NCBI GenBank assembly: GCA_947643415.1
Contig: CANRWA010000026.1
Location: 1 to 49,714, forward strand
Origin: an uncultured Clostridia bacterium
Lineage (GTDB): Bacteria; Bacillota; Clostridia; Lachnospirales; Lachnospiraceae
DNA length: 49,714 nucleotides
Reading direction: 5' to 3'
In this document: positions 3,355-25,795 of the stretch, piece after piece
How positions within the stretch are numbered: position 1 is the first letter of the stretch
How the letters are laid out: each line of letters starts with the position of its first letter
Made by a program: the position numbers and the translations under genes
Notes under the pieces: model-generated
The model's input: only the letters and a program-made list of their open reading frames with translations
What the model was told of the DNA's origin: nothing
Database searches by the model: none

Positions 3355-3383
3355 ATCTTACTCCTTGAAACTTTTGATGTCAA
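3355..3383 (-). promoter_or_regulatory. Sigma-A promoter of ilvE
   Basis: On the minus strand, TTGACA (3383-3378) and TAAGAT (3360-3355) are separated by 17 bases. Transcription would start near 3348, about 40 bases before the ilvE ATG. Confidence 0.85.
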
Positions 3384-3409
3384 GCTGTTACTGCTCCCGT
3401 CTTTTATCG

Positions 3410-3438
3410 TTGAACTTCTTTCTCCTATCCCTTATAAT
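3410..3438 (+). promoter_or_regulatory. Sigma-A promoter of the SGNH hydrolase-tmcAL operon
   Basis: TTGAAC (3410-3415) and a perfect TATAAT (3433-3438) are 17 bases apart. The start of transcription would be near 3445, and the first ATG of the operon is at 3484. Confidence 0.87.
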
Positions 3439-3483
3439 GATGTCATAACCTTCAACATGCCAACATAGAAAGGAACACGCAAA

Positions 3484-4101
3484 ATGAAACATATATTATG
3501 CTTTGGCGATTCCAACACATACGGGTTCAACCCGCATGGCGGGCGCTATGACGACAATACCAGGTGGACAAGGGTACTTGCCAGGCTTCTCGGCAGTGGT
3601 TATCTGATCCTGGAGGAGGGACTGAATTCCCGTACCACGGCTCTGGATGATCCCTATGAACCATACCGCAATGCTATGGACTACATCGTGCCCTGCCTGC
3701 AGACACATGCACCACTGGACCTCACGATCCTGATGTTGGGAACAAATGACCTGAAAGTGTACTTTCAGCCATCCGTAGAAAAGATAAACAGCCGCCTCCG
3801 GCGTCTGACAGAGGTCATTCTTGATGTCAGTATGGCACCTGTCCTTCTTGTAAGCCCGGTACACTTGGGAGAATCTGCACCCGAAGATCCCTGTGCTTTT
3901 CTTTATCCACCACATTCTGTTGAAGTATCCCATACTCTTGGCCCGGTTCTGAAGCAGACTGCAGGAGAACTTGGTGTGCCTTTTTTGGATGCTTCCGGCT
4001 ATGTCGATCCGGATCCTTTTGACCATGTCCATCTGTCACCAGAGAGCCACCACCTTCTCGCTGAAGCATTTGCGGGGAAAATAAAAGAAATCGGGATCTA
4101 A
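3484..4101 (+). CDS. SGNH/GDSL-type esterase
   Basis: This 205-residue cytoplasmic hydrolase has the SGNH blocks in order. Block I is CFGDSNTYG with nucleophile S10. An oxyanion Gly/Asn follows around 45-50. Block III is GTND (N88), and block V is DHVH with D180 and H183. No signal peptide is present. Such enzymes cleave acyl or acetyl esters, and the substrate cannot be told from sequence. It resembles the small arylesterase/TAP-like lineage. The stop is 14 bases before tmcAL, so the two are co-transcribed from the promoter at 3410. AAAGGAA precedes the start. Confidence 0.85.
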   Translation: MKHILCFGDSNTYGFNPHGGRYDDNTRWTRVLARLLGSGYLILEEGLNSRTTALDDPYEPYRNAMDYIVPCLQTHAPLDLTILMLGTNDLKVYFQPSVEKINSRLRRLTEVILDVSMAPVLLVSPVHLGESAPEDPCAFLYPPHSVEVSHTLGPVLKQTAGELGVPFLDASGYVDPDPFDHVHLSPESHHLLAEAFAGKIKEIGI

Positions 4102-4115
4102 CCAGGAGGAGTACC

Positions 4116-5330
4116 ATGAATGTTGTTGGCATCATTGCCGAATTCAATCCCTTTCATCAGGGACATGCATATATGATACAGAAAGCAAAGGAAATCACCT
4201 GCTCTGATCTTGCTGTCATTATCATGAACGGAGAATTCGTACAGCGGGGTGAACCTGCTGTCTTTTCTAAATATGACCGGACAAAGGCAGCTCTGGAGGG
4301 TGGTGCCGATCTGATACTGGAACTTCCTGTCCGTTTTGGGATCTCCAGCGCCGGGGATTTTGCTCTGGGCGGTGTTCTGGCACTATCTGCCCTGGGTTTC
4401 GTAACCCACCTTGCTTTCGGCAGTGAATGCGGAGATATCCTGCCATTTCAGGATGCCGCTGCTGCCCTTTTTGAAGAATCCGAAGAGTTTCATCAGACCC
4501 TTGCACATTTACTCAGAGAAGGCATGTCTTTTCCTGCCGCCCGGTCACATGCCCTGACAGAGACTTCCCCCATCCCTCCTTCCCTGCTAAAGAAGCCGAA
4601 TAATATTCTCGGTGTCGAATACTGCCTTGCCCTGAAAAAGACCAATTCGCCATTGATCCCTGTCACAATCCCAAGGACAGGGATGGGATATCATGAGACC
4701 TTTGCCAATGAGTATGACCAGGGCAAAAAAGACAAACCATCCCATAGGCCAGAAGGCCTCCTGTCAGGCAAAGCCCCACAGATGAACGTTCCATCTGCCA
4801 CTGCCCTCCGACAGAAAATCTATGACAGTGACACACCTCACCTGGCACTGGAAGATTTTGATTCCGCACTGGGCTATGCTTTATTGCAGGATAGCAATCT
4901 TACAAGATACAAGGATATCTCCTCTGACCTTGCCGACCGGGTCCAGCACTGTATTCCAGATTACCGGACAATCCGTGAACTAACGGGTCAGTGCCAGACA
5001 AGGGCATTCACTGATGGGCGGATCCGGCGTGGACTGATGCAGTGTCTCCTTCACATAGAGGCAACCGACCACACCATGCCCTATCTCCGGCTTCTTGGGC
5101 TGAGAATTAATAATAAAAACACAGGAGCCAGTTCCCTGCTCTCACAGGTGCCTGACTCCTGCCATATTCTTTCACGGCTTGCCATGGATATAAAAATCCT
5201 TGATCCTCATGCCCTTGCCCTGTTCCGGCAGGACCTCTTCGCTGCTGATCTCTACCGTCAGACCTGGTGCCGTAAGTACAACATAAGCCTGCCAAATGAA
5301 TACCAGCATTCTCCCATTATTGTTGGGTAA
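4116..5330 (+). CDS. tmcAL: tRNA(Met) cytidine acetate ligase (TmcAL/YlbM family)
   Basis: This 404-residue protein opens with GIIAEFNPFHQGH, the HxGH nucleotidyltransferase signature of TmcAL (former DUF795). The family activates acetate with ATP and transfers it to C34 of elongator tRNA-Met to form N4-acetylcytidine. Length agrees with the family (about 400). The ATG at 4116 has an ideal AGGAGG site. It is the second gene of a two-gene operon. A recognisable terminator is not visible between its stop and the converging gene at 5428, so its transcripts may overlap the end of the accessory protease operon. Confidence 0.92.
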   Translation: MNVVGIIAEFNPFHQGHAYMIQKAKEITCSDLAVIIMNGEFVQRGEPAVFSKYDRTKAALEGGADLILELPVRFGISSAGDFALGGVLALSALGFVTHLAFGSECGDILPFQDAAAALFEESEEFHQTLAHLLREGMSFPAARSHALTETSPIPPSLLKKPNNILGVEYCLALKKTNSPLIPVTIPRTGMGYHETFANEYDQGKKDKPSHRPEGLLSGKAPQMNVPSATALRQKIYDSDTPHLALEDFDSALGYALLQDSNLTRYKDISSDLADRVQHCIPDYRTIRELTGQCQTRAFTDGRIRRGLMQCLLHIEATDHTMPYLRLLGLRINNKNTGASSLLSQVPDSCHILSRLAMDIKILDPHALALFRQDLFAADLYRQTWCRKYNISLPNEYQHSPIIVG

Positions 5331-5427
5331 CTTATTTTATTTCCCAAGGATTCTCAGAATATTCTACCTCCATCAGGTAGTTCTTTGTCTATAGATACAG
5401 TGTATCAAGCTCGAACCGCAAAGCATT

Positions 5428-8400
5428 TTACTTTTTATTCAGTTCGCCTGCTGTCTTCTGGATTTCTTCCTTGTCCAGATATTTCTTCTCGTTCGCCATG
5501 ACTGCATTCACCAGACGTTCCATCGCATCCTTATTCGCCTCAATAATTCTTATTGCCTCTTTCAACTGTTCTGATAAAATCCGGTTGATGAGCTCTTTTA
5601 CCTTTTCGTCATATTTAAGCTCCATCTCTTCAATTTTAACAATCACGGCCAATCCGATTTCTTCTTCATACATTCCATATTTACACACCATATTTGCTGC
5701 AATGCCTGTAGCCATTTCCAAATCAGCAGCCGGACCATGTGTCAGACCATCTTCTATTTCTAATACATCTGCATATACCATTTCGGCGGCCCTGCCTCCT
5801 AACATACAACAGATCCTCTCCAGATAATATTTCTTGGTCGAATCCCCTTCCCCTGCCCCAGGCAGCATATATCCACCATGGCCTCCTCTTGCCACAATGC
5901 TCATATAAGCGGGTGGCCTGCCATTGTATAAATCAATCAAGGCATGCCCTGCCTCATGATACGCAGTCCGCTCTATCTCCTTTGGAGGCCTGTCAACTCT
6001 TTCCTCACCCATGATACATTTTTCAAACACCTCATCAAACAAGTCGTCATCAATATCACAGCCGGACCGAATCCCCTCCCGCAAAGCTGCCTCAACTACC
6101 TGCTCAAGCTTTGCAGGACTCCTTCCCTCAAACCGCTCAACAATACTCTCCATCTTTCCCTTCGAAATTTTAAACCTACCACTCTGCTTTTTGATGAGGT
6201 TTTCCAGCAGCTTCAAGTTCCCCTCTTTATCCAAATAATCCATCATAAATGTCATGTCAAAACGACGTTGGAGTGCAAAGTCAATTTTGTTTCCAAGATT
6301 CGTGGCTGCCATGACAAATACCGGCTTACTGTCTACTTTTTTAAACCCGTCCATCTCGGTCAGCAATGCGTTCAAAACCGGATTTGGCGCATTTGAATAT
6401 TCCCGTTTCATACCGATGGCATCAATTTCATCAATGAACAGGATTGCTGGCGCATATTTTCTTGCGATACGGAATTCATCCTGTACCTTTTCAGAACCTC
6501 CATTAAGCAACTCACTTGCGCTGATGGATAAGAAATTCACTTTGGATTCCGAAGCCACAACCTTTGCCAGAGAGGTCTTGCCAGTTCCCGGAGGTCCATA
6601 CAACAGGACTCCCCTTGGTCTCACCCCGCTTTTGTTATACTCCTTAGGCTTCCGGAGATAATCAATAAAAAATTTAAGCTCCTCTTTTAGATGCTCTAGA
6701 TACTTTGGCAGATAAATATCATCCCAGCTTTTATCCGGACGCAGATCATCGGACAGCATCGAAGACTTATCCTCGGACTCCACCGCCGTATCAAGCTTAA
6801 AATCACCAAAAATGATACTTCCAACATTGGTATCCTTATCAAATTCTTGTTTGGTTTCATACATCAGAACCTGATGCCGCGTTGCCAATGTCTCCATTAC
6901 CACCTGACAGCATACATCCTTGTATGCCTGCTCCAACTGGCTTCTAAAATATTTACTCTCGATAAACCCCGCGGCCCCTTTTTTCATAAGGGCATTTTTT
7001 TCTCTATCCGTATAGTCATGTCCATGGCTTCCGTCCAAAATATACACCGGGACTTCTTTATCTTCCTTCCGGAGTTGTAAGAAGACCTTCCGTCCAATCG
7101 TCTTGGCATCCACCACATTCAGCCTGTTTTCCACATTTTCAAGACCATGTATGTAGTCAATGACTGCAAAAAGAACATTTTCCTTATAGGTCATTTCCAT
7201 AAACTCATCAATATTCACAGTGCTCTTCACGCTTACATCGTTATTTTTTATCTTCCCAACCGACTTATATTTTACTGTTCCGAAGACAGGAATTACACAG
7301 TTCCTTTCCCCCTTGTAAAAGTCCCTGATTTCCTCTGTGGTATCTTCAAAATCACATTGCCATTCTATCCTTCTTTCCACGTCGTCTTCATCCAGTATCT
7401 GCTTATCTTCCAACAGTTCCAAAAACTTACGTATTTCCCTGTCAACAAGCTTACCCGCTATTTCGGAAGCATTTCTGGCATCTGCACTTCCCCCCATGGA
7501 ATACAATACAGTCTTGGCCAGATACTCCTTTCCCTGGCTCAGCTCATAGCCATATTTGTCTTTTAGTTTTCGAAAACGATCTTCTATATCATCCTTTACG
7601 AGTTCAAGAATTGCATCTGCCCTTAGATGGTTAAACATGATGATAACATGCGAAGACATCCTAGAAAGTATTTCCGGAGGGAAAAAAGGCGCTTTTGTTT
7701 CCGAATCTTTATCCTTCTCCAGTGCGTCCATCAACACCTTATCCGGAAGCAGCGTAAGATTTTCGTTCTGTGCATCACTGTAAAGCTGTCTGCCCGCATT
7801 AGTCGTAAAAAAAACGATAGCATTTTTAAACGACAGATTTTGCCGATTATATTTATCCTCGCAAATCCCATCATCCAAAATCTGTAAAAAAATCCGTATA
7901 ACAGAAATATGCGCTTTTTCTATTTCGTCAAACAAAAGAACGCATCTCGGATTTTTAGACACAAACTCGGTAAGTATACCCGGCTCAGAATCCTTCCAGG
8001 TTGGGGCAAAACCAACCAATTCTTCTATGGCCTCCCTATTAGAATACCCTGACATATCAAACCGTTTATAAGGCAATCCCAATCTGAAAGCAAACTGCTG
8101 TGCCATATAAGTTTTCCCCACACCCGGAGGTCCTGCTAAAAGGTATGCGCTCCTGGGGCCTCTCCTATTCGGCGTCAGGCAGGCCTTCAATTCCGCATTA
8201 AAATAAGATTCGCTCAGCCTCCCAATAGCTGCATCTTGTCCAAGAATCTTGCCTCTCAGTTCCGTTTCTATCGCTCCGGCCTGCATCAAAAGCTGCTGCA
8301 TGGAAACTTCGCCCTCCGCTTTCTCCGCCCCTTCTTCCGTTTTAATGGCTTTGGGCTTTGGATAACGGTTAGCCATCCGTTCCACGAACCGGATCACAGC

Positions 8401-9009
8401 ATACGGATTATACCCAATAGCATTCTCCTCTTCTAAGTCTTTATAGATAGCTGTCAATTCACTTAAGGCCACGTCAGAGAGACATTGTTTTAGCTGTCTC
8501 CTCAGCTTGTTTGCTGCTTTCCCCCTCTCCGTACCAGAACGTCTGCACCTGATGAGCTCGACGCATTCCTTCATATCTGCCGCTATCACCCAGTATTCTG
8601 TCGGTTCTGTATCTTTTTCTCTGTTGGCGGCTATCCATTTGTCAAATTCATCTCCATCATCCTCGATATTCTCTTCTTCCAGCCCCCTCATATCAGAAAA
8701 CAGTTCTAGATCATCTGCTTCTGACTCATCACCGAAGGGCAAAAAACCATAGTTCTTCCAACTCACATCGTCCAAATAGTCGGCACTATCACCCAGATAC
8801 ACCAAATCCCCCAGAAATTCTTCCGCTTCTTTTATGGCATACCGCAGGCTGCCGGGCACATCTTCCGGCTCCTCCTCCAACTCGCTCCGATATTCGAAAC
8901 GGCGAAATTTGGAATTTGGATACTTGTTTGTCTGCTCAGAACATTTCAGCCATTCATTAAAAATTCCGGTCTTTCTTCCGCATTTTACTGCATAAATCAT
9001 TTTCTTCAT
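5428..9009 (-). CDS. Hybrid-binding domain - AAA+ (Clp-like) - AAA+ (FtsH-like) - M41 protease, paralogue B
   Basis: This 1193-residue multidomain protein has a viroplasmin/RNase H1 hybrid-binding domain at residues 1-45 (YAVKCGRKTGIFNEW; Y6, W20, F38), then an acidic linker. The Clp/HSP100 D2-like AAA+ module follows, with GPPGVGKT 293-300, LLFDEIEK 358-365, sensor-1 TTN 402-404 and a sensor-2-like ADAR 509-512. A degenerate receiver-like segment lies at about 605-705. The FtsH-like AAA+ has GPPGTGKT 805-812, FIDEIDAIG 858-866 and fingers R915/R916. The M41 peptidase has HEAGH 1018-1022 and a likely third zinc ligand D1096. It has no membrane helix, unlike FtsH. Compared with its paralogue (11140-15117), the second-ring pore loop is shortened and lacks the aromatic residue. 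It is the last gene of the operon, 83 bases after the PLD gene. Predicted role (inference): ATP-dependent unfolding and proteolysis linked to RNA:DNA hybrids. Confidence 0.88.
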   Translation of the reverse strand: MKKMIYAVKCGRKTGIFNEWLKCSEQTNKYPNSKFRRFEYRSELEEEPEDVPGSLRYAIKEAEEFLGDLVYLGDSADYLDDVSWKNYGFLPFGDESEADDLELFSDMRGLEEENIEDDGDEFDKWIAANREKDTEPTEYWVIAADMKECVELIRCRRSGTERGKAANKLRRQLKQCLSDVALSELTAIYKDLEEENAIGYNPYAVIRFVERMANRYPKPKAIKTEEGAEKAEGEVSMQQLLMQAGAIETELRGKILGQDAAIGRLSESYFNAELKACLTPNRRGPRSAYLLAGPPGVGKTYMAQQFAFRLGLPYKRFDMSGYSNREAIEELVGFAPTWKDSEPGILTEFVSKNPRCVLLFDEIEKAHISVIRIFLQILDDGICEDKYNRQNLSFKNAIVFFTTNAGRQLYSDAQNENLTLLPDKVLMDALEKDKDSETKAPFFPPEILSRMSSHVIIMFNHLRADAILELVKDDIEDRFRKLKDKYGYELSQGKEYLAKTVLYSMGGSADARNASEIAGKLVDREIRKFLELLEDKQILDEDDVERRIEWQCDFEDTTEEIRDFYKGERNCVIPVFGTVKYKSVGKIKNNDVSVKSTVNIDEFMEMTYKENVLFAVIDYIHGLENVENRLNVVDAKTIGRKVFLQLRKEDKEVPVYILDGSHGHDYTDREKNALMKKGAAGFIESKYFRSQLEQAYKDVCCQVVMETLATRHQVLMYETKQEFDKDTNVGSIIFGDFKLDTAVESEDKSSMLSDDLRPDKSWDDIYLPKYLEHLKEELKFFIDYLRKPKEYNKSGVRPRGVLLYGPPGTGKTSLAKVVASESKVNFLSISASELLNGGSEKVQDEFRIARKYAPAILFIDEIDAIGMKREYSNAPNPVLNALLTEMDGFKKVDSKPVFVMAATNLGNKIDFALQRRFDMTFMMDYLDKEGNLKLLENLIKKQSGRFKISKGKMESIVERFEGRSPAKLEQVVEAALREGIRSGCDIDDDLFDEVFEKCIMGEERVDRPPKEIERTAYHEAGHALIDLYNGRPPAYMSIVARGGHGGYMLPGAGEGDSTKKYYLERICCMLGGRAAEMVYADVLEIEDGLTHGPAADLEMATGIAANMVCKYGMYEEEIGLAVIVKIEEMELKYDEKVKELINRILSEQLKEAIRIIEANKDAMERLVNAVMANEKKYLDKEEIQKTAGELNKK

Positions 9010-9092
9010 AACCTAACTTCTCCTATCGCCATATGTTCCCCGTATATGTAAGCTGTATTTGCCAAACCACAGGACAATTTGCTCTTTATTTT

Positions 9093-10562
9093 TCATCGTA
9101 CTCCAGGCATCCATTTTTGAAATAAATCAGCCTTCTGGGAATCCGTATAATACCATTGTTTGCGTTCACTGTCCCATTTTGCGCCTAATTTTTTTACCTC
9201 TTCTTTTTCTTTATATGGACATTTGATGTAATATCTATTTGCTTCTACAACTGCAGTTGCCGTTCCATGGGCATATGTATCCGGCTGTGCAAGGATTTCA
9301 TTAAAAAATCCAATTAGCTGTTTTGCCAACCCATGGTCTTCTATTATAATATAATGGTTTACTTTAGAATATTTTCCTCTATAGCTTATGCCGCTTAAAT
9401 TTGATCTCTCAGAATTATCTATCGACACATCTCCGTATATAAATTCTGATGGCGTATAATCACCTGTACTGACAATGACAATGTTATCTACAACAATGAA
9501 CTTTGCATGAACATTTTTATTCACTTTATAGCTGCAAGACTCAAGTTGATCCACTTGCTTAATCAAATATTTAAAGCTTTTTATGTGTTGAGGTTTCCGC
9601 TGACCATGCAGATCCCCATTCGCATCCACATATGTCTGTGATAGACATTTAACTTTAATTCCCTGTCTGCACTTGTCGAAAATAGCTCCAAAAATCCCCG
9701 GCCTTAGTCCTTTATTTTTTATATCACGATAATTGAATGCGGTCAATTCTTCTGCACATATATAAATCCTCTCTTGCGCTTTGGAAATAATGTCCCTAAT
9801 CTTTTCTTCAATTTTGATTGGTGAATCCTGGATAAATGGTGCGGTAAAATAATTCATTCCTACATTCCCACCATAAACTGTTTCCATTTCATAGTTATAA
9901 TTAGGGTGCGGATTCTGCCAATCAGGGAATCTGACAGAATGACTTAGCAAATTTGAGAAAAACATTTCTGATGTTTCACGTGATGCCGACGTGTCTTCTA
10001 CAAGCAGCATGAACTCAGCCTTGGGTTGATGATACCCTACAGTAAAATTAGAAGATGTAAGCCCTGTTACCGTCTTTCCGTCCTTATATTTTATATAAAC
10101 AGACTTAGAACGCAGGCTATATGACCGTCTTCTCCCAGAAAAGGAAGAGTACCTCACCGTAGATTTTCTTACACAGGTATGGTCAAAAACCTGCAGCATA
10201 TAGTTTTCGCTGTTCAATCTTTCGATATCTTCATAAATCTCTTTTGCCAATGAATATATCGTAACATTATGACGGTAAATCTCATTTGTTTCATATTCAT
10301 ATATGTCTTTAGGGTAACTGTCGTCATAGCCCTCCAATGGGATTGAAATAACAGTAACCTTGATTCCCCTATTTGCAAAAGATTTCATTTTTTCGTGCAA
10401 GACACCATTATTGTACCAATGCAGGCTCAAATATATTGCAGAGATATTGTCCGCTTCCCTGTCTAAAAAATCCAGAAATTTTTTTAATATCTCCACACTG
10501 GATCCCTTTTGATGGAGTTTTCGATTACTGGGATTTTCAAAAAAAAATATCGGTTCCATCAC
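9093..10562 (-). CDS. Phospholipase D-fold protein with C-terminal DUF5710 domain
   Basis: This 489-residue protein has two PLD-like halves. The second half carries a canonical HxKx4D motif (H352, K354, D359: HAKFIVVD) followed by STGDYTPSEF. The first half has only the trailing TGLTSSNFT signature at 167-175, with the His lost (SVYIKYKDGK). Residues 443-487 (YIKCPYKEK, then KLGAKWDSERKQWY) match DUF5710, a small domain often found on plasmid and phage primases and related nucleic-acid enzymes. It is therefore more likely a nuclease than a lipase, but with one intact HKD it would probably need to dimerise, as in Nuc/BfiI. The GTG at 10562 is seven bases after AGGAGG, and an adjacent in-frame ATG at 10559 is equally possible. 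It is the third gene of the operon, 117 bases after the RNase HI gene. It is clearly A+T-rich. Confidence 0.85.
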   Translation of the reverse strand: MMEPIFFFENPSNRKLHQKGSSVEILKKFLDFLDREADNISAIYLSLHWYNNGVLHEKMKSFANRGIKVTVISIPLEGYDDSYPKDIYEYETNEIYRHNVTIYSLAKEIYEDIERLNSENYMLQVFDHTCVRKSTVRYSSFSGRRRSYSLRSKSVYIKYKDGKTVTGLTSSNFTVGYHQPKAEFMLLVEDTSASRETSEMFFSNLLSHSVRFPDWQNPHPNYNYEMETVYGGNVGMNYFTAPFIQDSPIKIEEKIRDIISKAQERIYICAEELTAFNYRDIKNKGLRPGIFGAIFDKCRQGIKVKCLSQTYVDANGDLHGQRKPQHIKSFKYLIKQVDQLESCSYKVNKNVHAKFIVVDNIVIVSTGDYTPSEFIYGDVSIDNSERSNLSGISYRGKYSKVNHYIIIEDHGLAKQLIGFFNEILAQPDTYAHGTATAVVEANRYYIKCPYKEKEEVKKLGAKWDSERKQWYYTDSQKADLFQKWMPGVR

Positions 10563-10679
10563 TCGCCATCCTCCTATTTTTAAAATTTCACCACAATCAA
10601 ACTGCGTCTCTGTCTATTTATCCCACAGATAAACTTTGTATTTATCATTCTCTGCTCTTCATACATTTGTATAATCAGG

Positions 10680-11147
10680 TCAGGATTTGGGGTTATAGCC
10701 TTTATCAGGAATCAATACACCTTTCCGCGCCTTATGTACCATCTCATCACAACGCTTATTATTCATATGGATCTCATCCGTTATTTCAGCCTTTTTATAT
10801 CCTTTTACCCAAACAAATTCAACACTGTTTCTATTTTCCATAACTTCATCAAACAACTTCCATAAATCATGGTTATTGTTCTTTTTCTCATCTCCTTTAA
10901 CATGATTAACTACATACGTAGAATCTGTATATAGTTTTACGGAAGCCTCTTTGGGAATTTCCTTTAATGCTTCTATAACTGCAAGTAATTCCATACGATT
11001 GTTTGTAGATTTTATAAACCCTTGTTGTCTTTCTCTTTCTTTTTCCGTTTCATCCTGAATAATATTATTTTTTATGATAATTCCATATCCGCCAGTCCCT
11101 GGATTTGGGTCGCATCCACCGTCTGTCCAAATTAAAAAATCACTCAT
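10680..11147 (-). CDS. Ribonuclease HI
   Basis: This 155-residue single-domain RNase HI degrades the RNA strand of RNA:DNA hybrids with two metal ions. The carboxylates are D9 (WTDGGCDPNPG), E53 (NNRMELLAV), D75 (LYTDSTYVV) and D134 (KRCDEM). The His of the usual WVKGH loop (E. coli H124) is Tyr117 here (WVKGY); a His remains at 127 ahead of the last Asp. It lacks the N-terminal hybrid-binding domain, which is instead carried by the two protease genes of the same operon. The ATG lies inside the end of the upstream gene: the two overlap by eight bases (ATGAGTGA), with GGAGGG in the upstream coding sequence, so translation is coupled. It is unlikely to be the housekeeping enzyme given its context. 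Confidence 0.93.
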   Translation of the reverse strand: MSDFLIWTDGGCDPNPGTGGYGIIIKNNIIQDETEKERERQQGFIKSTNNRMELLAVIEALKEIPKEASVKLYTDSTYVVNHVKGDEKKNNNHDLWKLFDEVMENRNSVEFVWVKGYKKAEITDEIHMNNKRCDEMVHKARKGVLIPDKGYNPKS

Positions 11148-14100
11148 ATCTTCCCTCCATCAGTCCTTCAAGTTGTTTTCCTGTTAGCCTGTTCTCTTTA
11201 GCTAGAACCTCCGCAATCTTCCGGATTTTACCTTTTGCACTTTCTATGATTTCTATTGTGTTCTTCATCTCAGTCTTTAAGATTTCATTCACTTTAGCCA
11301 TGTATTCTCCTGCCAGTGCTGATTGAAGTACCTCATCCTTACTGAGGACAATCATCTGATCCTGTTCCATTCCATATGTGCATACCATTTGGAATGCGGT
11401 ATCAGTAGCATGCCGCAAGTCGCCGGATGCCCCTGTATTGAGCGACTTCTCCTTACCATAAAACACCTCTTCAGCCGCACGGCCTGCCAAAGAAATCCTT
11501 ATTCTTGCCAGGAGTTCATCTCTCGAATAATCTGCCACATTCTCCTGGTTTGCATGCTGCATATACCCACCATAATTACCCCTAGACTCGATCGTGATAT
11601 ATGAAGGTTTGTCCCCACTGATATAGGACACATACGCATGGCCGGCCTCATGAATAGCCACACTCTTGTAGTAATCCGGAGTATGCTCTTTCTTTTCACC
11701 ATGGTTGTACTCCTCAAGAGCGGTCAGCAGATCGTCATCCGTCATAGTTCCCGACTGTTTTATAGCATTACGGAATGCAAGTTCAAACACGTTCTGAAGC
11801 TCTGCAAGACTCTGTCCCGTAGTCCTCTCTGCAATATTGTGCGCTGTCTCTTCGGAAACAGCCGTGATATTCCTATCAGCAAGCATCTTAAGGAGATATT
11901 GTTCACGTTCACTTTCCCTCGGAAGATCCACACAAATCCTATTGTCGAAACGCCTGAGCAGAGCATCATCCAGTGAATCAATCCTATCACCCTCTCTTCC
12001 GGCTCCGAAGTTAGTAGCAGCCAGCACAAAAACAGGCTTATTGTGGTCAGCGCCAAGAAAACCATCCATCTCGGTAAGCAGGGCATTCAACATACTTTCT
12101 GTGTGATGAGTATTCTCTGAACCGGTTCTCTTCTTGCCGATGGCATCGATCTCATCAATAAATATAATAGCCGGCGCATATTTCCTCGCCTTTTCAAAGA
12201 TCCGCCTGATATTAGCCTCGCTCTCGCCTTCATATTTATTCATAAACTCTGTTGCACTGGTCTGGAAGAAGGCCACATCCGACTCACCTGCCATAGCTCT
12301 GGCAAGCATTGTCTTTCCAGTTCCCGGAGGTCCGTAGAGAAGAATCCCTTTCGGTGGTCTAATGCCATTCTTAATGAACTCTTTTGGTTTCGTAAGATAC
12401 TCCACAAAATACCGGAGATCTTCCTTCGCCTTTTCAGCTCCAATAACATCATAAAATTTAATATTGGGCCGCTCTACATCGGATAGAATTGAAGACAAAT
12501 CCTCGGATTCCACAGCCGTTTCCAACCTGAGATCATAAAATTCAATCTTGCCCACATCATAACGTTTGTCAACAAACCCTTTTCTCGTCTTATAGGTCAA
12601 TATCTGATGCCTGCGGGCAAGTGCATCCATTACTTCCTGACAACATACATCCCAATAGGCCACCTCCAGCTCATCTTCATAAAATTCCCTGTCAATAAAG
12701 CCTCTCGCACCTCTTTTAACCAGGTCGTTTTTCTCCCTGTCCGAATACTTATATTCGTACTTCCCTCCACATAAAATGTATATCGGAATGTCTTTGTTTT
12801 CTCCTGTCGCACGCAGAAACACATTACTTCCCACGGTTCTTGCATCTGCGATATTCAGGCTGTTTTCTGCACTATCCAATCCCAGTGTATAGTCAATTAC
12901 CCCAAAGAGAACATTCTCGGAACGGAGCATTCCCATAAATACATCACAATCCGTTGTGTCCTTCACAGTGATACCATTCTCTTTAAGAGAACCCGAAGGC
13001 CTATATTGCGTGGTTCCCAGTACGGGAATCACACCATTTATTTTGCCAGAATACAACTCTCTGATTTCATCCGTTGCTCCCGTAAAATCACAATCCCACT
13101 CTATTTTTTTGATCTTTTCGATGTTGTCCGGCAGCATCTTTTGCATCATCAGATTCATAAATTCATATAATTGCTGATCGATCAGCTTTCCGGCCAGCTT
13201 GGATGCATTCCTGGCATCGGCGCTTCCGCCCATGGAATAAAGCACAGTCTTCGCCAGTTTACTTTCCCCAATTCTCAAATTGTATCCATATCCCTGCTCT
13301 GTTTTTATAAGCTGATTCTCCACATCCTTTTCCACCACCCGCCTAAGGGCATCCGCTTTTAGGTGGTTAAACATGATAACGGTATGAGAAGACATTCTTG
13401 ATAGTATTTCAGAAGGAAAAAAAGGATTGTTTGTTTCCGGATTGATGTCTTTTTCCAAAGCATCCAGTACCAGCTTGTCTGGAAGCGCCGTCAGATTCTC
13501 ATCTTTTGCATCACGGTAACGCTGTTTGCCCGCATTTGTGGTAAATATTATAATGGTGTCTTTAAAAGATATATTCGTATCGTAATAACGGTCAAAACAG
13601 ATTCCGTCATCCAGTATCTGCAAAAATAACCGAACAACAGTGCCATGCGCCTTTTCTATTTCGTCGAACAAAAGCACACTATGCGGATTTTCATTCACAT
13701 AATCAGTCAGTACGCCCGGTTTGGAATTCTTCCAAAAAGTAGAAATACCGGTCAATTCCTCTACTGAATCGCCCCTGGGATATCCCGACATATCAAAACG
13801 TCTGAAAGGAAGACCCAGCTCGTCCGCAAATAACTGCGCCATGAAAGTCTTTCCCACACCAGAAGGTCCCGCGAACAAGAATACATTCCTTGGACCCTTT
13901 ATTTTCTCTTCCAAACGAGAACTTTTTTCCGCATGGAAAAAAGTTCTCTCTAATTTGTCAATTGCATCATCCTGCCCGAATACCTTCTCCTTGAGTTTCA
14001 CACCGATAGATTCGGCATGCATGACCAGCTGCTTAAATGATGCCTTCGTCTCCTTCCTATGTACTTTCTTCTCCAGATCGGGATTGACATATGGACCAGA

Positions 14101-15117
14101 CACTTTCATAAGTTCCTTCCGGTACACGTTATTCTCCGTTAATTCCCGATACAAGTCGCTCAAAGAGTGACCTCCCTGTTTGATATATTTCTTCATAAGT
14201 CTGTATGTGGTAGAATTCGTCTCCAGAATTCTCTCATAACTATTCTTTGCAAAGGCACGGCATCTTTGTAAGATCTCGTCAAAGTCCACATACTCCATGT
14301 CATACTTTTCAAAACGTTGTTTCAGTGCACGGTACTCATCTGAATTTTTCCATACTTTGCAGGCATCATCGACCCAGCCTGCAGGCGAATTCTCCATTGA
14401 AACCCCATCTCTGATTTTCGGATAAATCCTTCCCTTGTATATTTCGTCAAAACTATACAAAATTAACTTTGGATCGAATACAAATTCAAGCAATATGGCA
14501 TATAATGTAGCCACGTGATATCTGCCCACATAGTTTCCACATGTGATATCCGAATTTGAACTACCTGCAATATATAGAAGAATCTCAAGCCAGGGCTTAT
14601 TTTGGTTGGGACGTTCGGGTATGTGGAGCTCTCCGTACACTTCTTCTTCCTTCGTATGGTCAAAATTATACACTGTTGATTCCTCAAAGGAGATTTTACC
14701 CACAGGTTCTGCATAATCAGAAGGAACATCATTCACAAAGGCAAAGGGAAATTGCTCATCTATACCGTCTTTTTCACCCTCTCCTTGCGGATTGTCTCCA
14801 TCACCAGGACTTCCCTCCCCAAAAGGCAGAAACCCTTCCTTCTTCCAGCTGTCTTCCTCAATATAATCCTGTTTTCTGCCCTGGTAAACAAGCTTAAACC
14901 CTCCTATGCAGAACTCACCCATGTATTTTTCCGCAAGCATAAAGGCATACCGGAGACTACCCTCCTTATTTTCATCTTCCTTTTCAAACTCTGACCTGTA
15001 AGAAAAACTGCGATACAAAGCTCTGGAAAATCCATTCGTCTGCTCATAGCACTTCTTCCATTCATCATAGATACCGGTTTTTCTTCCTCTTTTTACTACG
15101 TAAATCAATTTTTTCAC
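11140..15117 (-). CDS. Hybrid-binding domain - AAA+ (Clp-like) - AAA+ (FtsH-like) - M41 protease, paralogue A
   Basis: This is the first gene of the accessory operon, 1325 residues. The viroplasmin/hybrid-binding domain is at 1-45 (YVVKRGRKTGIYDEW; Y6, W20, F38). An unrecognised region at about 110-345 is not shared with paralogue B. The Clp-D2-like AAA+ has GPSGVGKT 417-424, LLFDEIEK 482-489, TTNAG 526-530 and ADAR 633-636. A receiver-like segment spans about 733-835 (D742). The FtsH-like AAA+ has GPPGTGKT 929-936, FIDEIDAIG 986-994, an intact aromatic pore-loop region KYEGES 961-966 and fingers R1055/R1056. The M41 protease has HEAGH 1156-1160 and D1233. There are no membrane helices. The start is the GTG at 15117, six bases after GGAGGGG; a TTG at 15132 overlaps that ribosome site. 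The stop overlaps the RNase HI gene. Activity as an ATP-dependent metalloprotease is strongly suggested by intact motifs; targeting to hybrids is inferred. Confidence 0.9.
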   Translation of the reverse strand: MKKLIYVVKRGRKTGIYDEWKKCYEQTNGFSRALYRSFSYRSEFEKEDENKEGSLRYAFMLAEKYMGEFCIGGFKLVYQGRKQDYIEEDSWKKEGFLPFGEGSPGDGDNPQGEGEKDGIDEQFPFAFVNDVPSDYAEPVGKISFEESTVYNFDHTKEEEVYGELHIPERPNQNKPWLEILLYIAGSSNSDITCGNYVGRYHVATLYAILLEFVFDPKLILYSFDEIYKGRIYPKIRDGVSMENSPAGWVDDACKVWKNSDEYRALKQRFEKYDMEYVDFDEILQRCRAFAKNSYERILETNSTTYRLMKKYIKQGGHSLSDLYRELTENNVYRKELMKVSGPYVNPDLEKKVHRKETKASFKQLVMHAESIGVKLKEKVFGQDDAIDKLERTFFHAEKSSRLEEKIKGPRNVFLFAGPSGVGKTFMAQLFADELGLPFRRFDMSGYPRGDSVEELTGISTFWKNSKPGVLTDYVNENPHSVLLFDEIEKAHGTVVRLFLQILDDGICFDRYYDTNISFKDTIIIFTTNAGKQRYRDAKDENLTALPDKLVLDALEKDINPETNNPFFPSEILSRMSSHTVIMFNHLKADALRRVVEKDVENQLIKTEQGYGYNLRIGESKLAKTVLYSMGGSADARNASKLAGKLIDQQLYEFMNLMMQKMLPDNIEKIKKIEWDCDFTGATDEIRELYSGKINGVIPVLGTTQYRPSGSLKENGITVKDTTDCDVFMGMLRSENVLFGVIDYTLGLDSAENSLNIADARTVGSNVFLRATGENKDIPIYILCGGKYEYKYSDREKNDLVKRGARGFIDREFYEDELEVAYWDVCCQEVMDALARRHQILTYKTRKGFVDKRYDVGKIEFYDLRLETAVESEDLSSILSDVERPNIKFYDVIGAEKAKEDLRYFVEYLTKPKEFIKNGIRPPKGILLYGPPGTGKTMLARAMAGESDVAFFQTSATEFMNKYEGESEANIRRIFEKARKYAPAIIFIDEIDAIGKKRTGSENTHHTESMLNALLTEMDGFLGADHNKPVFVLAATNFGAGREGDRIDSLDDALLRRFDNRICVDLPRESEREQYLLKMLADRNITAVSEETAHNIAERTTGQSLAELQNVFELAFRNAIKQSGTMTDDDLLTALEEYNHGEKKEHTPDYYKSVAIHEAGHAYVSYISGDKPSYITIESRGNYGGYMQHANQENVADYSRDELLARIRISLAGRAAEEVFYGKEKSLNTGASGDLRHATDTAFQMVCTYGMEQDQMIVLSKDEVLQSALAGEYMAKVNEILKTEMKNTIEIIESAKGKIRKIAEVLAKENRLTGKQLEGLMEGRYE

Positions 15118-15298
15118 AAGGTACCCCTCCAAACGTTTTTTGTCACAGAATATAGCTTATCAACATACCCCCTCATTCCATCAACTGTCCTTTTCTAATT
15201 TACCTAGTACCTCTTCCGCCGTAAAACACCTCAATATCGTACATCTGATATCCATACCATTATTGTCACAATGTAAATATCCCACAAAGAGTTACTTT
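15118..15298. promoter_or_regulatory. Intergenic region upstream of the accessory operon, with an 11-bp palindrome
   Basis: This 181-base gap lies between malQ (upstream, same strand) and the protease operon. No malQ terminator and no convincing sigma-A promoter are visible, so read-through from malQ is possible. An inverted repeat ATTGT-G-ACAAT (minus strand; 15262-15272) could be an operator. A 24-codon ORF (15181-15255, minus) has no ribosome site and is not called. Confidence 0.35.
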
Positions 15299-16804
15299 TC
15301 AGTTCTCACCATTAAGCATTCCCACTCTCCCATATAGCTTCGTCATCTTCCTTATTTTCTCACACAGAGAATCGCTAAAAGCATCCTGATCCATACGCCA
15401 CTGCCAGTTATCTCCTATTGTAGATGGTGTATTGGTACGCGCTGTATTAGGCAGGCACAGATAATCCTGCATTGGGATCACACACAGGTCTGAGACACTT
15501 CCCATGGCAAGGCAGATCAGGTTCCATGTGAGCTTCTTCTTCGAGGCAAACCGTCCGCAGTTCATATAGCGTACTGCCACTGCCTTATCCTCTTTCGCCA
15601 TCTCATCCCAGCAACTGAATGTGGTGGCATTGTCATGTGTCCCTGTATACACCACAGAATTCCTGTCATAATGGTATGGCAGGTAATCGCTGTCCTCTCT
15701 GGAATCAAAGGCAAACTGAAGAACCTTCATTCCTGGAAAACCGGAATCCTTAAGAAGCTTTCGGACAGAGTCCGTCAGAAAGCCGAGATCCTCTGCTATG
15801 ATGGGAAGCTCTCCCAGTTCTTCCTGCAGTGCTGTGAAAAGATCCATTCCCGGTCCTGGTTCCCACTCACCATGTTCCGCTGTCTTATGTCCATATGGTA
15901 TCGCATAATATTCATCAAAACCACGAAAATGATCGATCCTCACCATATCATACCATTCATAACAGTTTCGGATACGGGAGATCCACCAGTCATAACCATT
16001 CTCCTTATGTATCTTCCAATTATAAAGCGGATTTCCCCAAAGCTGTCCTGTCTCAGAGAAAGCATCCGGCGGGCATCCGGCAACACCGATAGGCTGTCCA
16101 TCTTTGTCAAACTGGAAAAGTTCAGGATGTGCCCAGGTATCTGCGCTATCCAGGGCGACATAGATCGGTATATCACCAATGATCTTCACACCCTTTTTGT
16201 TGGCATATGCCTTCAATGCCTTCCACTGACAGGAAAATTCATACTGCAGGAACTCATAGAAATACACATCGTCCATCCATTTATTCTTATAAGAAACCAT
16301 AGCTTCCGGCTTGCGGAGACGGATGTCTTCTTCCCATTCCAGATAGCTCTTTCCATTCTTGCTGTCTTTCACTGCCATGAACAGGGCATAGTCCGGAAGC
16401 CATTCACTGTTCTTCTGGACAAAGGCATTGAATCCCGCATCCGATTCAATGCCACTCCGACCAAAAGCTTTGCGGAGCAGGGCAAACCGTTTCTCATACA
16501 GCACACCATATCTGACACGGCGGGCGTCTGTCCCCTCTGCCGCCTCCTCACACTCCTGTGTCTGCAGATATCCCTTCTTTACCAGATCATCCAGAGAGAT
16601 AAAATAGGGATTGCCGGCAAATGTAGAAAAGGATTGATAGGGAGAATCCCCATACCCTGTAGGGCCCATGGGAAGGATCTGCCAATAACTCTGCCCTGCC
16701 CTTGCAAGTTTATCTACAAATTCGTACGCGCACCGGTCAAAACAGCCAATTCCATATCGGGATGGAAGGCTTGCCACCGGAAGTAAAATACCACTATTTC
16801 TCAT
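15299..16804 (-). CDS. malQ: 4-alpha-glucanotransferase (amylomaltase)
   Basis: This 501-residue GH77 enzyme transfers alpha-1,4-glucan segments between maltodextrins and acts in glycogen and maltose turnover in the cytoplasm. Visible family marks are the N-terminal GILLPVASLPSRYGIG, the nucleophile region MVRIDHFRGF, the acid/base IIAEDLGF and the third-Asp region TGTHDN. Length is typical for bacterial MalQ. It lies 23 bases after the PrsA-like gene on the same strand, so it is probably the last core gene of the pth-mfd-prsA-malQ series. It fits functionally with glgC/glgD at 28815-31210. Confidence 0.95.
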   Translation of the reverse strand: MRNSGILLPVASLPSRYGIGCFDRCAYEFVDKLARAGQSYWQILPMGPTGYGDSPYQSFSTFAGNPYFISLDDLVKKGYLQTQECEEAAEGTDARRVRYGVLYEKRFALLRKAFGRSGIESDAGFNAFVQKNSEWLPDYALFMAVKDSKNGKSYLEWEEDIRLRKPEAMVSYKNKWMDDVYFYEFLQYEFSCQWKALKAYANKKGVKIIGDIPIYVALDSADTWAHPELFQFDKDGQPIGVAGCPPDAFSETGQLWGNPLYNWKIHKENGYDWWISRIRNCYEWYDMVRIDHFRGFDEYYAIPYGHKTAEHGEWEPGPGMDLFTALQEELGELPIIAEDLGFLTDSVRKLLKDSGFPGMKVLQFAFDSREDSDYLPYHYDRNSVVYTGTHDNATTFSCWDEMAKEDKAVAVRYMNCGRFASKKKLTWNLICLAMGSVSDLCVIPMQDYLCLPNTARTNTPSTIGDNWQWRMDQDAFSDSLCEKIRKMTKLYGRVGMLNGEN

Positions 16805-22050: not shown

Positions 22051-22208
22051 AGGAACTGTTAAGAAATAACTTTTAAATAATGCGCAGGATTTTTCTTCGA
22101 GAGTGATGTTCAAAAATCAGGCGCATAGCGGGCTATGTAACTGATTTTTGAATAATGCTGTCGAAGAAAAAGACAAGCAATATTAAAAGTTATTTTTGAA
22201 CAGTTCCT
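22051..22208. repeat. Structured MITE-like repeat, copy 1
   Basis: This 158-bp element is bounded by AGGAACTG and CAGTTCCT and flanked on each side by TTA. Long terminal inverted repeats (about 30 bases with few mismatches) enclose a second internal hairpin (CAAAAATCAG / CTGATTTTTG). It is closely similar to 43745-43903 in the same orientation. Differences between copies fall in paired positions, so pairing is conserved. It lies inside the pth leader, ending just before the ribosome site. It has no coding capacity and is probably a non-autonomous transposable element. Confidence 0.85.
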
Positions 22209-22275
22209 TACCAACTGTGCGTACACAACTTTCACCCGACGGCGCCATAAGACACCCTCGGGAACTGTATTATTT

Positions 22276-22304
22276 ATTGTATCAGATTGGAAGAACGCTA
22301 GCAA
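22276..22304 (-). promoter_or_regulatory. Sigma-A promoter of the pth-mfd series
   Basis: On the minus strand, TTGCTA (22304-22299) and TACAAT (22281-22276) are separated by 17 bases. Transcription from about 22269 would give a long leader of about 230 bases that contains the repeat element. A small CCCGA/TCGGG hairpin occurs early in that leader. Confidence 0.75.
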
Positions 22305-22474
22305 CAGAAAATTGAATTTATCAAATACTGTTTTTTACATGATAGATCATTTTCTTTACTTCTTCTATTTCAGCATATCATGCGTGAATATTTTCCCATC
22401 AGATATTGCCAAGCCTGCCAGCAGAAAACTGAAAATGCTCTCTGAAGTGCGGGACGGCAGTACAAAAATCCTGA
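22305..22474. other. Gene-free stretch between divergent promoters
   Basis: The region lies between the leftward pth promoter and the rightward antitoxin promoter. A 61-codon plus-strand ORF (22312-22497) crosses it, but it lacks a ribosome site, is A+T-rich at its start and runs through the antitoxin promoter, so it is not called. I see nothing else. Confidence 0.5.
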
Positions 22475-22503
22475 TTGACGTTTCCATAAAGAAATGATAT
22501 AGT
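22475..22503 (+). promoter_or_regulatory. Sigma-A promoter of the antitoxin RNA
   Basis: TTGACG (22475-22480) and TATAGT (22498-22503) are 17 bases apart on the plus strand. The predicted start is about 22510. No protein-coding gene follows, only the antisense RNA. Confidence 0.85.
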
Positions 22504-22510
22504 AGAGATA

Positions 22511-22535
22511 CAAAAGGGGAAACCGGAAGCGGTTT
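22511..22535 (-). terminator. Possible terminator of the toxin mRNA
   Basis: A stem AAACCG/CGGTTT (22520-22525 with 22530-22535) has a four-base loop and is followed on the minus strand by CCCC and T4 (22515-22512). It is a weak terminator, but it is placed where the toxin mRNA should end. It overlaps the 5' end of the antisense RNA. Confidence 0.5.
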
Positions 22536-22569
22536 ACCTTAATAGTTATAGCAAACCTCTTATGAGGTC

Positions 22570-22610
22570 AGCCGTCATTATCTGCAGTAATGGCGGCTAT
22601 TTCTTTCCCT
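22570..22610 (+). terminator. Terminator of the antitoxin RNA
   Basis: An eleven-base stem with one G-U pair (AGCCGTCATTA / TAATGGCGGCT, 22570-22580 with 22588-22598) has a seven-base loop and a T-rich tail (ATTTCTTTCCCTT). The stem is also transcribed in the toxin mRNA, just after its stop codon. Confidence 0.75.
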
Positions 22611-22686
22611 TAAAAATCTGATAAAACAGACTGATAAGGGCAACTACAAATGTACAAAACAAGAAAAAATCCTGATATGTAATCAT
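22597..22686 (-). CDS. Hol_Tox-family small membrane toxin (type I TA)
   Basis: This 29-residue peptide begins MITYQDFFLF, continues as a single hydrophobic helix (CTFVVALISLFY) and ends in basic KGKK. This is the pattern of Firmicute putative holin-like toxins (TxpA/BsrG-like), whose overproduction disrupts the membrane. The gene has its own consensus promoter (22771-22799), a leader of about 78 nt, and a GGGGGG ribosome site eight bases before the ATG. The stop falls inside the hairpin shared with the antisense RNA. Toxicity is inferred from family resemblance and locus architecture. Confidence 0.85.
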   Translation of the reverse strand: MITYQDFFLFCTFVVALISLFYQIFKGKK

Positions 22687-22710
22687 CGTATCGCCCCCCT
22701 TCTTTCATCT

Positions 22711-22730
22711 GGAGGGCTATTCAACCCTCC
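22711..22730 (-). promoter_or_regulatory. Hairpin in the toxin mRNA leader
   Basis: A perfect GGAGGG/CCCTCC stem with an eight-base loop lies 25-44 nt ahead of the toxin start codon. It contains a Shine-Dalgarno-like GGAGGG that is paired. Leader structures that delay toxin translation are usual in type I systems, but this role is inferred. Confidence 0.5.
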
Positions 22731-22770
22731 GAAGAAGGTAAGCCGCCTCGCTTTTGGTTTCCCAGTTTTT

Positions 22771-22799
22771 ATTATATCAACAACCAAGATGCATATCAA
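22771..22799 (-). promoter_or_regulatory. Sigma-A promoter of the toxin gene
   Basis: On the minus strand, TTGATA (22799-22794) and a perfect TATAAT (22776-22771) are separated by 17 bases. The start would be near 22764. Confidence 0.88.
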
Positions 22800-22848
22800 C
22801 AATAATTATATTTTTGAAAAATCACAATTTATCTGCGATTCCTTTTTC

Positions 22849-23943: not shown

Positions 23944-24003
23944 CGTTTTCACCCTTTCTTCATTATATGGTCTGGCTCGTCGGCACTAATTTGCGCCGCC
24001 AGG

Positions 24004-25794: not shown

Positions 25795-25795
25795 C

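Follow-up and report, generated by a model that had tools for sequence, protein, structure and literature searches.

Several described systems share parts with the locus analysed here, a four-gene operon in DNA from an uncultured Clostridia bacterium of the family Lachnospiraceae (assembly GCA_947643415.1, contig CANRWA010000026.1). In E. coli, activation of RnlA and recruitment of the antitoxin RnlB both depend on RNase HI, which regulates this anti-phage pair in both directions (PMC5308261). Viroplasmin and RNase H modules are both found in RNase LS proteins (PMC3710099). The FtsH ternary conflict systems combine a MoxR protein and a vWA protein with a third protein that has two rings of the FtsH type, of which the first is inactive (PMC7159879). 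These statements rest on parts of the three papers.

The stretch of DNA that was analysed, hereafter the window, is 49,714 nucleotides long. It encodes two giant AAA+ proteases, designated G1 and G2, each beginning with an RNase H1-type hybrid-binding domain (HBD), together with an RNase HI and a PLD-fold protein. The module is real, recurrent and apparently undescribed, and a role in defence is plausible. The reading we lean towards, at slightly less than even confidence, is that of a laterally placed accessory conflict or stress module, possibly defensive, in which soluble double-ring AAA+/M41 proteases would be recruited to RNA:DNA hybrids. Recruitment to hybrids and the defence role are what we infer from sequence comparison.

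A recurring trio of HBD-bearing proteases and RNase H

Giants related to G1 and G2 were compared at 14 loci including the window; L003 and L019 lie on the same contig and were counted once, and L116, on a 4.4-kb contig, was excluded from neighbourhood counts. L001, L002 and L004 are from Lachnospiraceae, and L003 is from a Clostridia bacterium. An HBD is present at the N-terminus of G1, G2, the giants of L001, L002, L003 and L020, and both giants of L004 (L004a and L004b). No Cauli_VI (HBD) match was found on the contig of the giant in the eight other loci, and the N-terminal pieces of L021, L022, L023, L110, L111 and L113 contain no Pfam domain above the cut-off.

Five of the six HBD loci (the window and L001-L004) encode a trio of a type-1 HBD giant, a type-2 HBD protein and an RNase H. 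The type-2 HBD module is a free protein in L001-L003, and is fused to its own AAA-AAA-M41 in the window and L004. The first-pass annotation of the window had described a pair of paralogous giants; this pairing is seen in the window and L004 and not elsewhere, and its general form is a pair of type-1 and type-2 HBD modules. Paired full giants were rejected as the rule, as L001-L003 have one giant with a free type-2 HBD module, and one giant was found in the stretches examined for L020-L023, L110-L113 and L117. The conserved unit appears to be the type-1 HBD giant, the type-2 HBD protein and the RNase H.

An RNase H gene lies beside the giant in 6 of 14 loci, 5 of 6 with an HBD versus 1 of 8 without (one-sided Fisher test, 0.016, hand-worked and uncorrected for relatedness), so that the proposed association of HBD-bearing proteases with RNase H is borne out. 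In the window, L001, L002 and L003, the RNase H gene starts at most 41 bases past the end of the giant gene or overlaps it. The HBD-less G531 has an ordinary RNase HI gene about 21.7 kb away on the same contig.

The expectation by chance was estimated with a Poisson model over the stretches examined, with 24 kb taken for the window. The 14 genomes contain 20 RNase_H matches (E<=0.01), of which 4 are beside giants, and 2 divergent copies not recovered by that search (L002 and L004) were added. Six RNase H neighbours were observed over the 14 loci versus 0.13 expected. Since the finding had been chosen for its RNase H, the window was excluded, which left 5 in 13 loci versus 0.118 expected (P 1.7e-7). 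When L001-L003 were counted once as well, 3 were observed versus 0.092 expected (P 1.2e-4), and when L004 was also dropped, because its RNase H was first spotted by eye, 2 versus 0.082 (P 0.003).

Domains and motifs of the giant proteases

In the Pfam scan, the 25 best families were considered for each giant (of 45 and 47). G1 matched Cauli_VI (1e-12), AAA_2 (1e-36), AAA (1e-49) and Peptidase_M41 (2e-26), and G2 matched the same families (2e-11, 1e-35, 1e-44 and 1e-26, respectively). Each giant contains one HExxH and two Walker A motifs. The Walker motifs, Arg finger, HEAGH and third ligand Asp of G1 are intact, and in an alignment of 10 giants HExxH, the third ligand Asp1238 and Walker A/B of both rings are invariant, residues that we take to occupy the FtsH/Clp functional positions. 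No clear membrane segment was found in the giants: the maximum 19-residue hydropathy is 1.64 and 1.17, versus 2.83 and 2.72 for the two FtsH proteins of the host. The giants are predicted to be soluble tandem-ring proteases with intact catalytic motifs. They are under purifying selection, with dN/dS of 0.15-0.28 for the genes as a whole, rising to as much as 0.38 when only the first 300 codons are considered (four comparisons).

The pore-loop segment of ring 2 is present in G1 and in the host FtsH and missing from G2, and it is also absent from the whole G2 branch (L004a, L020, G2 and L004b), L023 and L113. The corresponding segment of ring 1 keeps its aromatic residue in 16 of 17 rows by eye. 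Because of this distribution, ring 1 probably does the pulling in G2.

The segment between the rings had been described as receiver-like. The alignment, by eye, retains receiver-type beta3, beta4 and beta5 motifs and lacks the acidic pair of beta1, so that the segment is at best a pseudo-receiver. A 14-sequence profile gave weak matches only, to a de novo designed protein (0.017) and to the natural receivers 4d6x (0.22) and CheY (0.38), and this search did not support a true response regulator. Receiver-domain proteins that echo this segment occur as separate genes in L002 (9512-9934; Response_reg, 2e-7) and L004 (17408-17776), and are alike by eye.

The predicted structure of G2 is of low confidence (mean pLDDT, the predicted local distance difference test, 51.6; 6-row alignment), with the pseudo-receiver under pLDDT 50. 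Its C-terminal FtsH part is usable, and the best matches are FtsH structures such as 2ce7 and 3kds.

The domain order of Clp-type AAA+, pseudo-receiver, FtsH-type AAA+ and M41 is family-wide among the relatives. The most distant giant, that of L117, has lost Walker B of ring 1 and Walker A of ring 2, and the L116 giant is truncated by the contig end. A tree of 15 rows was midpoint-rooted for drawing; L116 was left out, as was L003 because its second ring is duplicated. Seven HBD giants split off with support of 100/100, as does the G2 branch among them (100/100), while G1 and L001+L002, the other HBD giants, are not joined as one branch. The HBD giants make up a single clade within a larger family whose N-termini are exchangeable. 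The L003 giant (10695-15536) is a 1613-aa protein with the duplicated FtsH-type ring and three Walker A motifs.

Hybrid-binding domains

The HBDs of G1 and G2 match the solved RNase H1 HBDs 1qhk (6e-8) and 3bsu (8e-8), respectively. With Cauli_VI matches above the cut-off, this similarity identifies them as RNase H1-type HBDs at the sequence level. The first 117 residues of G1 are 73% identical to those of L004a, and the first 220 residues of G2 are 60-65% identical to the free proteins of L001, L002 and L003 and to the N-terminus of L004b (220-224 aa).

Tyr, Trp and F-R-R residues are presumably those that contact the hybrid. Tyr and Trp are kept in 8 of 8 HBD giants, and the F-R-R patch persists in G2, in L004b and in the module that L003 encodes as a free protein. 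The basic patch of the type-1 HBDs is changed, to YRS in G1, L004a and L020 and to FCG, FCS and YCG in L001-L003. The free type-2 modules of L001 and L002 have FQG in place of F-R-R, and the HBD-like ends of the RNase H proteins of L001, L003 and L004 are more degenerate.

RNase H genes

The RNase HI of the window matches RNase_H in Pfam (8e-26) and is below the NCBIfam RNase HI cut-off (102.4 vs 160 bits). Aligned to E. coli-type RNase HI, it keeps the acidic residues (Asp-Glu-Asp-Asp), has Tyr at what we number as the His124 position, and lacks a segment that we take to be the one named the basic protrusion. RNases H1 without a basic protrusion rely on an HBD, and an HBD supplied in trans would therefore make sense for this enzyme.

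The L113, L004 and window copies are 25-33% identical to the RNase H of L001. The Glu is conserved in all six aligned copies, as are the first two Asp residues; by eye the last Asp can also be made out in each of them, that of the window copy in the comparison with E. coli-type RNase HI. The very different lineages suggest repeated recruitment of the activity. A reverse search with the L003 RNase H matched 35 of 397 family genomes (E<=1e-12), mostly ordinary RNase H1 as judged by size and identity; for the relatives of G051 the count was 1 of 30, G051 itself.

Insertion site, distribution and mobile elements

The four genes are real and intact, and form one insert between tmcAL and malQ (Table 1). 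The Pfam matches and the minus-strand open reading frames (ORFs) agree with the leftward operon and domains first described, as do the overlap of exactly 8 bases between RNase HI and G1 (11140-11147) and the G1 start: GTG at 15117, with GGAGGGG upstream, is better than TTG at 15132. Shine-Dalgarno-like sequences (ribosome-binding sites) precede 4 of 4 operon genes. A promoter scan gave 20 promoter-like sites versus 24.7 in shuffles. The A+T-rich setting that had been noted is also seen: the G+C content is 0.418 for 5428-15132 versus 0.465 for the remainder of the window, and the values for RNase HI (0.342) and PLD (0.364) are far below those of the giants (0.43-0.44).

tmcAL is present in 38 of 39 genus genomes, the source genome included. 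The tmcAL-malQ region was examined in 7 of 37 other genus genomes, those with the seven best tmcAL matches. The two genes are directly adjacent and convergent in six of them (L125, L126, L128, L129, L130 and L131), and other genes sit between them in the seventh, G002. Giants were found in 1 of 39 genus genomes (E<=1e-80; 26 of these genomes reach 90% completeness with no more than 5% contamination), in 6 of 397 at the family level (E<=1e-90), and in 5 of 392 order and 3 of 398 phylum genomes (E<=1e-150). These counts include the source genome, and two candidates per genome were scored in the family, order and phylum searches. The rarity of the giant, and the empty site in 6 of the 7 relatives examined, mark the operon as accessory and sporadically distributed. 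It is an insert, and at E<=1e-80 no giant was found in 38 of 39 genus genomes, so that a core housekeeping locus, the outcome that would have told against the first-pass annotation, was not what was found.

Carriage of the giant by phages or plasmids was rejected, as none of the viral-contig matches listed reached the M41 part and no phage or plasmid record covered 80% of the query. A viral-contig search with G1 gave at least 80 loci; among the matches listed, the highest query residue was 1149, and the M41 part (from about residue 1156) was not reached. By tblastn, G1 matched 4 plasmid records (E<=1e-60), none covering 80% of the query, and 24 phage records (E<=1e-40), with no 80% coverage among the 15 listed. 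No relative of the type-2 HBD module or of the PLD protein was found in viral contigs. The RNase HI of the window gave distant matches only, all below 60% identity, in 83 phage and 48 plasmid records, and the L003 RNase H matched one phage record at 29%.

A second insert lies at 22114-25795 of the window; the genes on its two sides, pth and an APH-like gene, adjoin each other in L125. The insert contains an ORF (22849-23952) without a Pfam or PADLOC match and a gene (24004-25794) for a 596-aa HATPase_c_3 protein (PADLOC TmtA, 4e-9). Neither has a match in the examined stretches of the 7 genus relatives.

Table 1. Coordinates of the operon, its domains and flanks in the window, and of RNase H and metallophosphatase genes near giants at other loci.
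Feature	Location	Coordinates	Strand	Length	Description
Inserted segment	window	5331-15298			between tmcAL and malQ
tmcAL flank	window	4116-5330	plus		HIGH_NTase1
malQ flank	window	15299-16804	minus
G2 giant	window	5428-9009	minus	1193 aa	type-2 HBD / Clp-type AAA+ / pseudo-receiver / FtsH-type AAA+ / M41
G2 M41 zinc protease	window	5458-5982	minus		HEAGH; Peptidase_M41
G2 type-2 HBD module	window	8353-9009	minus	about 219 aa
PLD-fold protein	window	9093-10562	minus	489 aa	C-terminal DUF5710
RNase HI	window	10680-11147	minus	155 aa
G1 ORF from TTG	window	11140-15132	minus
G1 from preferred GTG start	window	11140-15117	minus	1325 aa	HBD / Clp-type AAA+ / pseudo-receiver / FtsH-type AAA+ / M41
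G1 M41 zinc protease	window	11167-11667	minus		HEAGH; Peptidase_M41
G1 AAA+ ring 2 (FtsH type)	window	11926-12345	minus		AAA; pore loop present
G1 pseudo-receiver segment	window	12478-13107	minus		weak evidence
G1 AAA+ ring 1 (Clp type)	window	13435-13884	minus		AAA_2
G1 type-1 HBD	window	14989-15102	minus		Cauli_VI
RNase H beside giant	L001	7354-8091			Cauli_VI + RNase_H by Pfam (RNase_H under cut-off)
RNase H beside giant	L002	14094-14873			86% identical to L001 copy
RNase H beside giant	L003	15526-16290			Cauli_VI + RNase_H by Pfam
RNase H beside giant	L004	17856-18866			no Pfam match; profile alignment to others (hhalign 96.8%, 2.8e-10)
RNase H beside HBD-less giant	L113	5022-5435			RNase_H by Pfam
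Metallophosphatase	L001	8242-8931			Pfam
Metallophosphatase	L110	6156-6875			matches that of L001, 3e-13
Metallophosphatase	L003	16341-17030			by eye
Metallophosphatase	L111	12295-13158			by eye
Metallophosphatase	L112	13898-14743			by eye
Metallophosphatase	L113	551-1375			by eye

The PLD protein and other neighbouring genes

The PLD protein matches PLDc_2 (4e-9) and DUF5710 (7e-15) in Pfam and has one clear HxK...D motif by eye. Co-occurrence of all four genes had been anticipated, and this part of the proposal failed. The PLD/DUF5710 gene was found in 0 of 13 other giant loci (no match in L001-L004, L019-L023, L110-L113, L116 and L117), which rules the protein out as a core part. Two of 249 other family genomes matched, G092 over DUF5710 only; the sole clear relative (L124, in G129) is 48% identical, split over two frames, and lies on a 6.8-kb contig without a giant or RNase HI. 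The search against plasmids gave 10 records, with at most 36% of the protein covered among the matches listed, mostly over DUF5710. Compared with DISARM DrmC (NF038319), the protein scored 19.6 bits against a cut-off of 133. We take it as cargo or a local effector.

In the HBD-less L113, the stretch 3380-16205 contains the giant, RNase H, an Mrr nuclease (PADLOC candidate PDC-S02, 1e-107), PIN7 and a TraG/T4SS coupling protein, and is perhaps an integrative element. A TIR-like protein, supported by PADLOC, is encoded near the HBD-less giant of L110. No defence-like genes were recognized beside HBD loci among the identified neighbours, those of L001-L004 not having been scanned with PADLOC.

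By eye, the HBD-less giants of L110-L112 seem to belong to signalling operons, which also encode FHA, PP2C, protein kinase or TIR proteins. Calcineurin-like metallophosphatases of two types are encoded near giants in 6 of 14 loci (no chance estimate). In L001, a DUF488-N3 active-subclade protein is encoded at 9013-9456, between the metallophosphatase and the type-2 HBD protein.

Proposed function and alternatives

In the proposed mechanism, the RNase H1-type HBDs would hold the protease on RNA:DNA hybrids such as R-loops, replication primers or reverse-transcription intermediates. Proteins bound there (a polymerase, a primase or an initiator of replication, for example) would be unfolded by the AAA+ rings and passed on to the M41 site, and the RNA strand of the hybrid would be removed by the accompanying RNase H. 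The most likely use would be to limit phages, plasmids or retroelements that generate many hybrids as they replicate or are transcribed. A defence role is suggested because the insertion is sporadic, the cassette has several genes with exchangeable parts, and HBD-less relatives lie beside Mrr, PIN7 and TraG (L113) or TIR (L110); this last support is indirect, as no such gene was recognized next to the HBD loci themselves. A more specific form of this proposal is held more tentatively: a new kind of conflict system, in which a matched HBD pair steers an ATP-driven protease to hybrids, the protease strips and destroys proteins on the R-loops, primers and reverse-transcription intermediates of parasites while the recruited RNase H erases the hybrid, and the whole may be one sensor version of a Clp-FtsH fusion family.

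Several observations weigh against hybrid recruitment for defence. HBDs can also bind double-stranded RNA. The HBD giant of L020 has neither a type-2 partner nor an RNase H within 19.9 kb. RNase H does not accompany the family as a whole, being absent from the examined stretch in 7 of the 8 loci without an HBD. By hhalign, the RNase HI of the window shows only weak similarity to the RNase H copies elsewhere (probability 47.7%). None of the 35 RNase H1-like places of the reverse search is on the contig of a giant found here, except the own locus of G051, and an HBD-RNase H alone does not predict a giant, since these matches are mostly ordinary RNase H1. The N-terminal region and pseudo-receiver of G2 were not identified by fold, the model being usable in its C-terminal part only. 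PADLOC completed no system with the four operon proteins.

Two other explanations are both unlikely, to a similar degree. The RNase H may be a regulator or sensor subunit: bound to the giant, it would turn the protease, or a toxin linked to it, on or off, like the RNase HI that activates RnlA and recruits RnlB (PMC5308261, in part). The viroplasmin and RNase H modules of RNase LS proteins (PMC3710099, in part) and the strong divergence of the RNase H lineages between loci, at 25-33% identity to the L001 copy, fit this role. However, the catalytic acidic residues are kept in all six copies, and cutting is probably used for that reason. Alternatively, the module may clear R-loops or stalled polymerases for the host in stress. 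The same domain logic fits such a function, as do the purifying selection and the lack of identified defence genes around the HBD loci (with the PADLOC limit given above for L001-L004), whereas a sporadic distribution (1 of 39 genomes of the genus and 6 of 397 of the family, the site being empty in 6 of 7 relatives) argues against it.

It is improbable that the HBDs have moved past hybrid binding and serve as protein-protein or double-stranded RNA-binding modules joining the giant, the second HBD protein and the RNase H. The altered type-1 basic patches, the FQG of the L001 and L002 free modules and the degenerate HBD-like ends of the RNase H proteins would be explained in this way, but Tyr and Trp are kept in all HBD giants and F-R-R in G2, L004b and the L003 free module. 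That the genes are chance neighbours, independent cargo in one insertion site, is very improbable for the set: it would suit the base composition of PLD and RNase HI, which differs from that of the giants, and the other genes at the site in G002, but the trio recurs with different RNase H lineages (P 0.003 to 1.7e-7, window excluded), so that this explanation is already unlikely for the RNase H and the type-2 HBD module and probably right for PLD.

If the defence module recruited to hybrids is real, RNA:DNA hybrids would join the known bacterial danger signals, and the wider family of Clp-FtsH fusion proteases, with its swappable N-termini, would offer a ready-made set of sensors of this kind. 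The recurring trio is a small, testable unit.

Comparison with known systems

The set of genes was thought to be undescribed, and apparently it is: no description was found in titles or abstract openings of open-licence papers among the matches listed. The giants resemble FtsH in their second AAA+ and M41, including HExxH and the third Asp ligand. Unlike FtsH, they lack a clear membrane segment and carry an extra Clp-type ring, a pseudo-receiver and an HBD; the G2-type giants lack the ring 2 pore-loop segment, and the giants score under the NCBIfam TIGR01241 cut-off (276.2 and 337.1 vs 600 bits). They differ from ClpA/ClpB in having one Clp-type ring (ClpA, 156 and 167 vs 993 bits).

The FtsH/Cdc48-type AAA+ of the giants is similar to IetA of IetAS (PADLOC, 8e-46 for G1), although they are under the IetA cut-off (118 and 134 vs 510 bits). 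The protease partner in IetAS is the subtilase IetS, whereas the protease of the giants is a fused M41, and no subtilase was found in the Pfam results for the four genes and 10 flanking ORFs.

HBD and RNase HI are the parts of RNase H1, and both are present in the window operon, which, unlike RNase H1, splits them over separate chains and places the HBDs on proteases. To our knowledge, no system uses an RNase H1-type domain to direct a processive protease to a nucleic-acid structure.

The FtsH ternary systems (Kaur 2020, PMC7159879, in part) are likewise accessory conflict modules with an FtsH-type AAA+, but the giants have a Clp-type first ring whose motifs are intact, and a scan of the four genes and the 10 ORFs flanking them turned up neither MoxR nor vWA as a separate gene. 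RNase H and viroplasmin modules are also linked to phage defence in RNase LS and RnlA-RnlB (PMC3710099 and PMC5308261, both in part). In contrast to RnlA-RnlB, the window operon encodes a protease, and no HEPN nuclease of the RnlA kind was seen in the four proteins (best Pfam families and PADLOC). By this analogy, RNase LS and RnlA-RnlB can be regarded as precedents for the logic of the module, rather than for its giant-protease machine.

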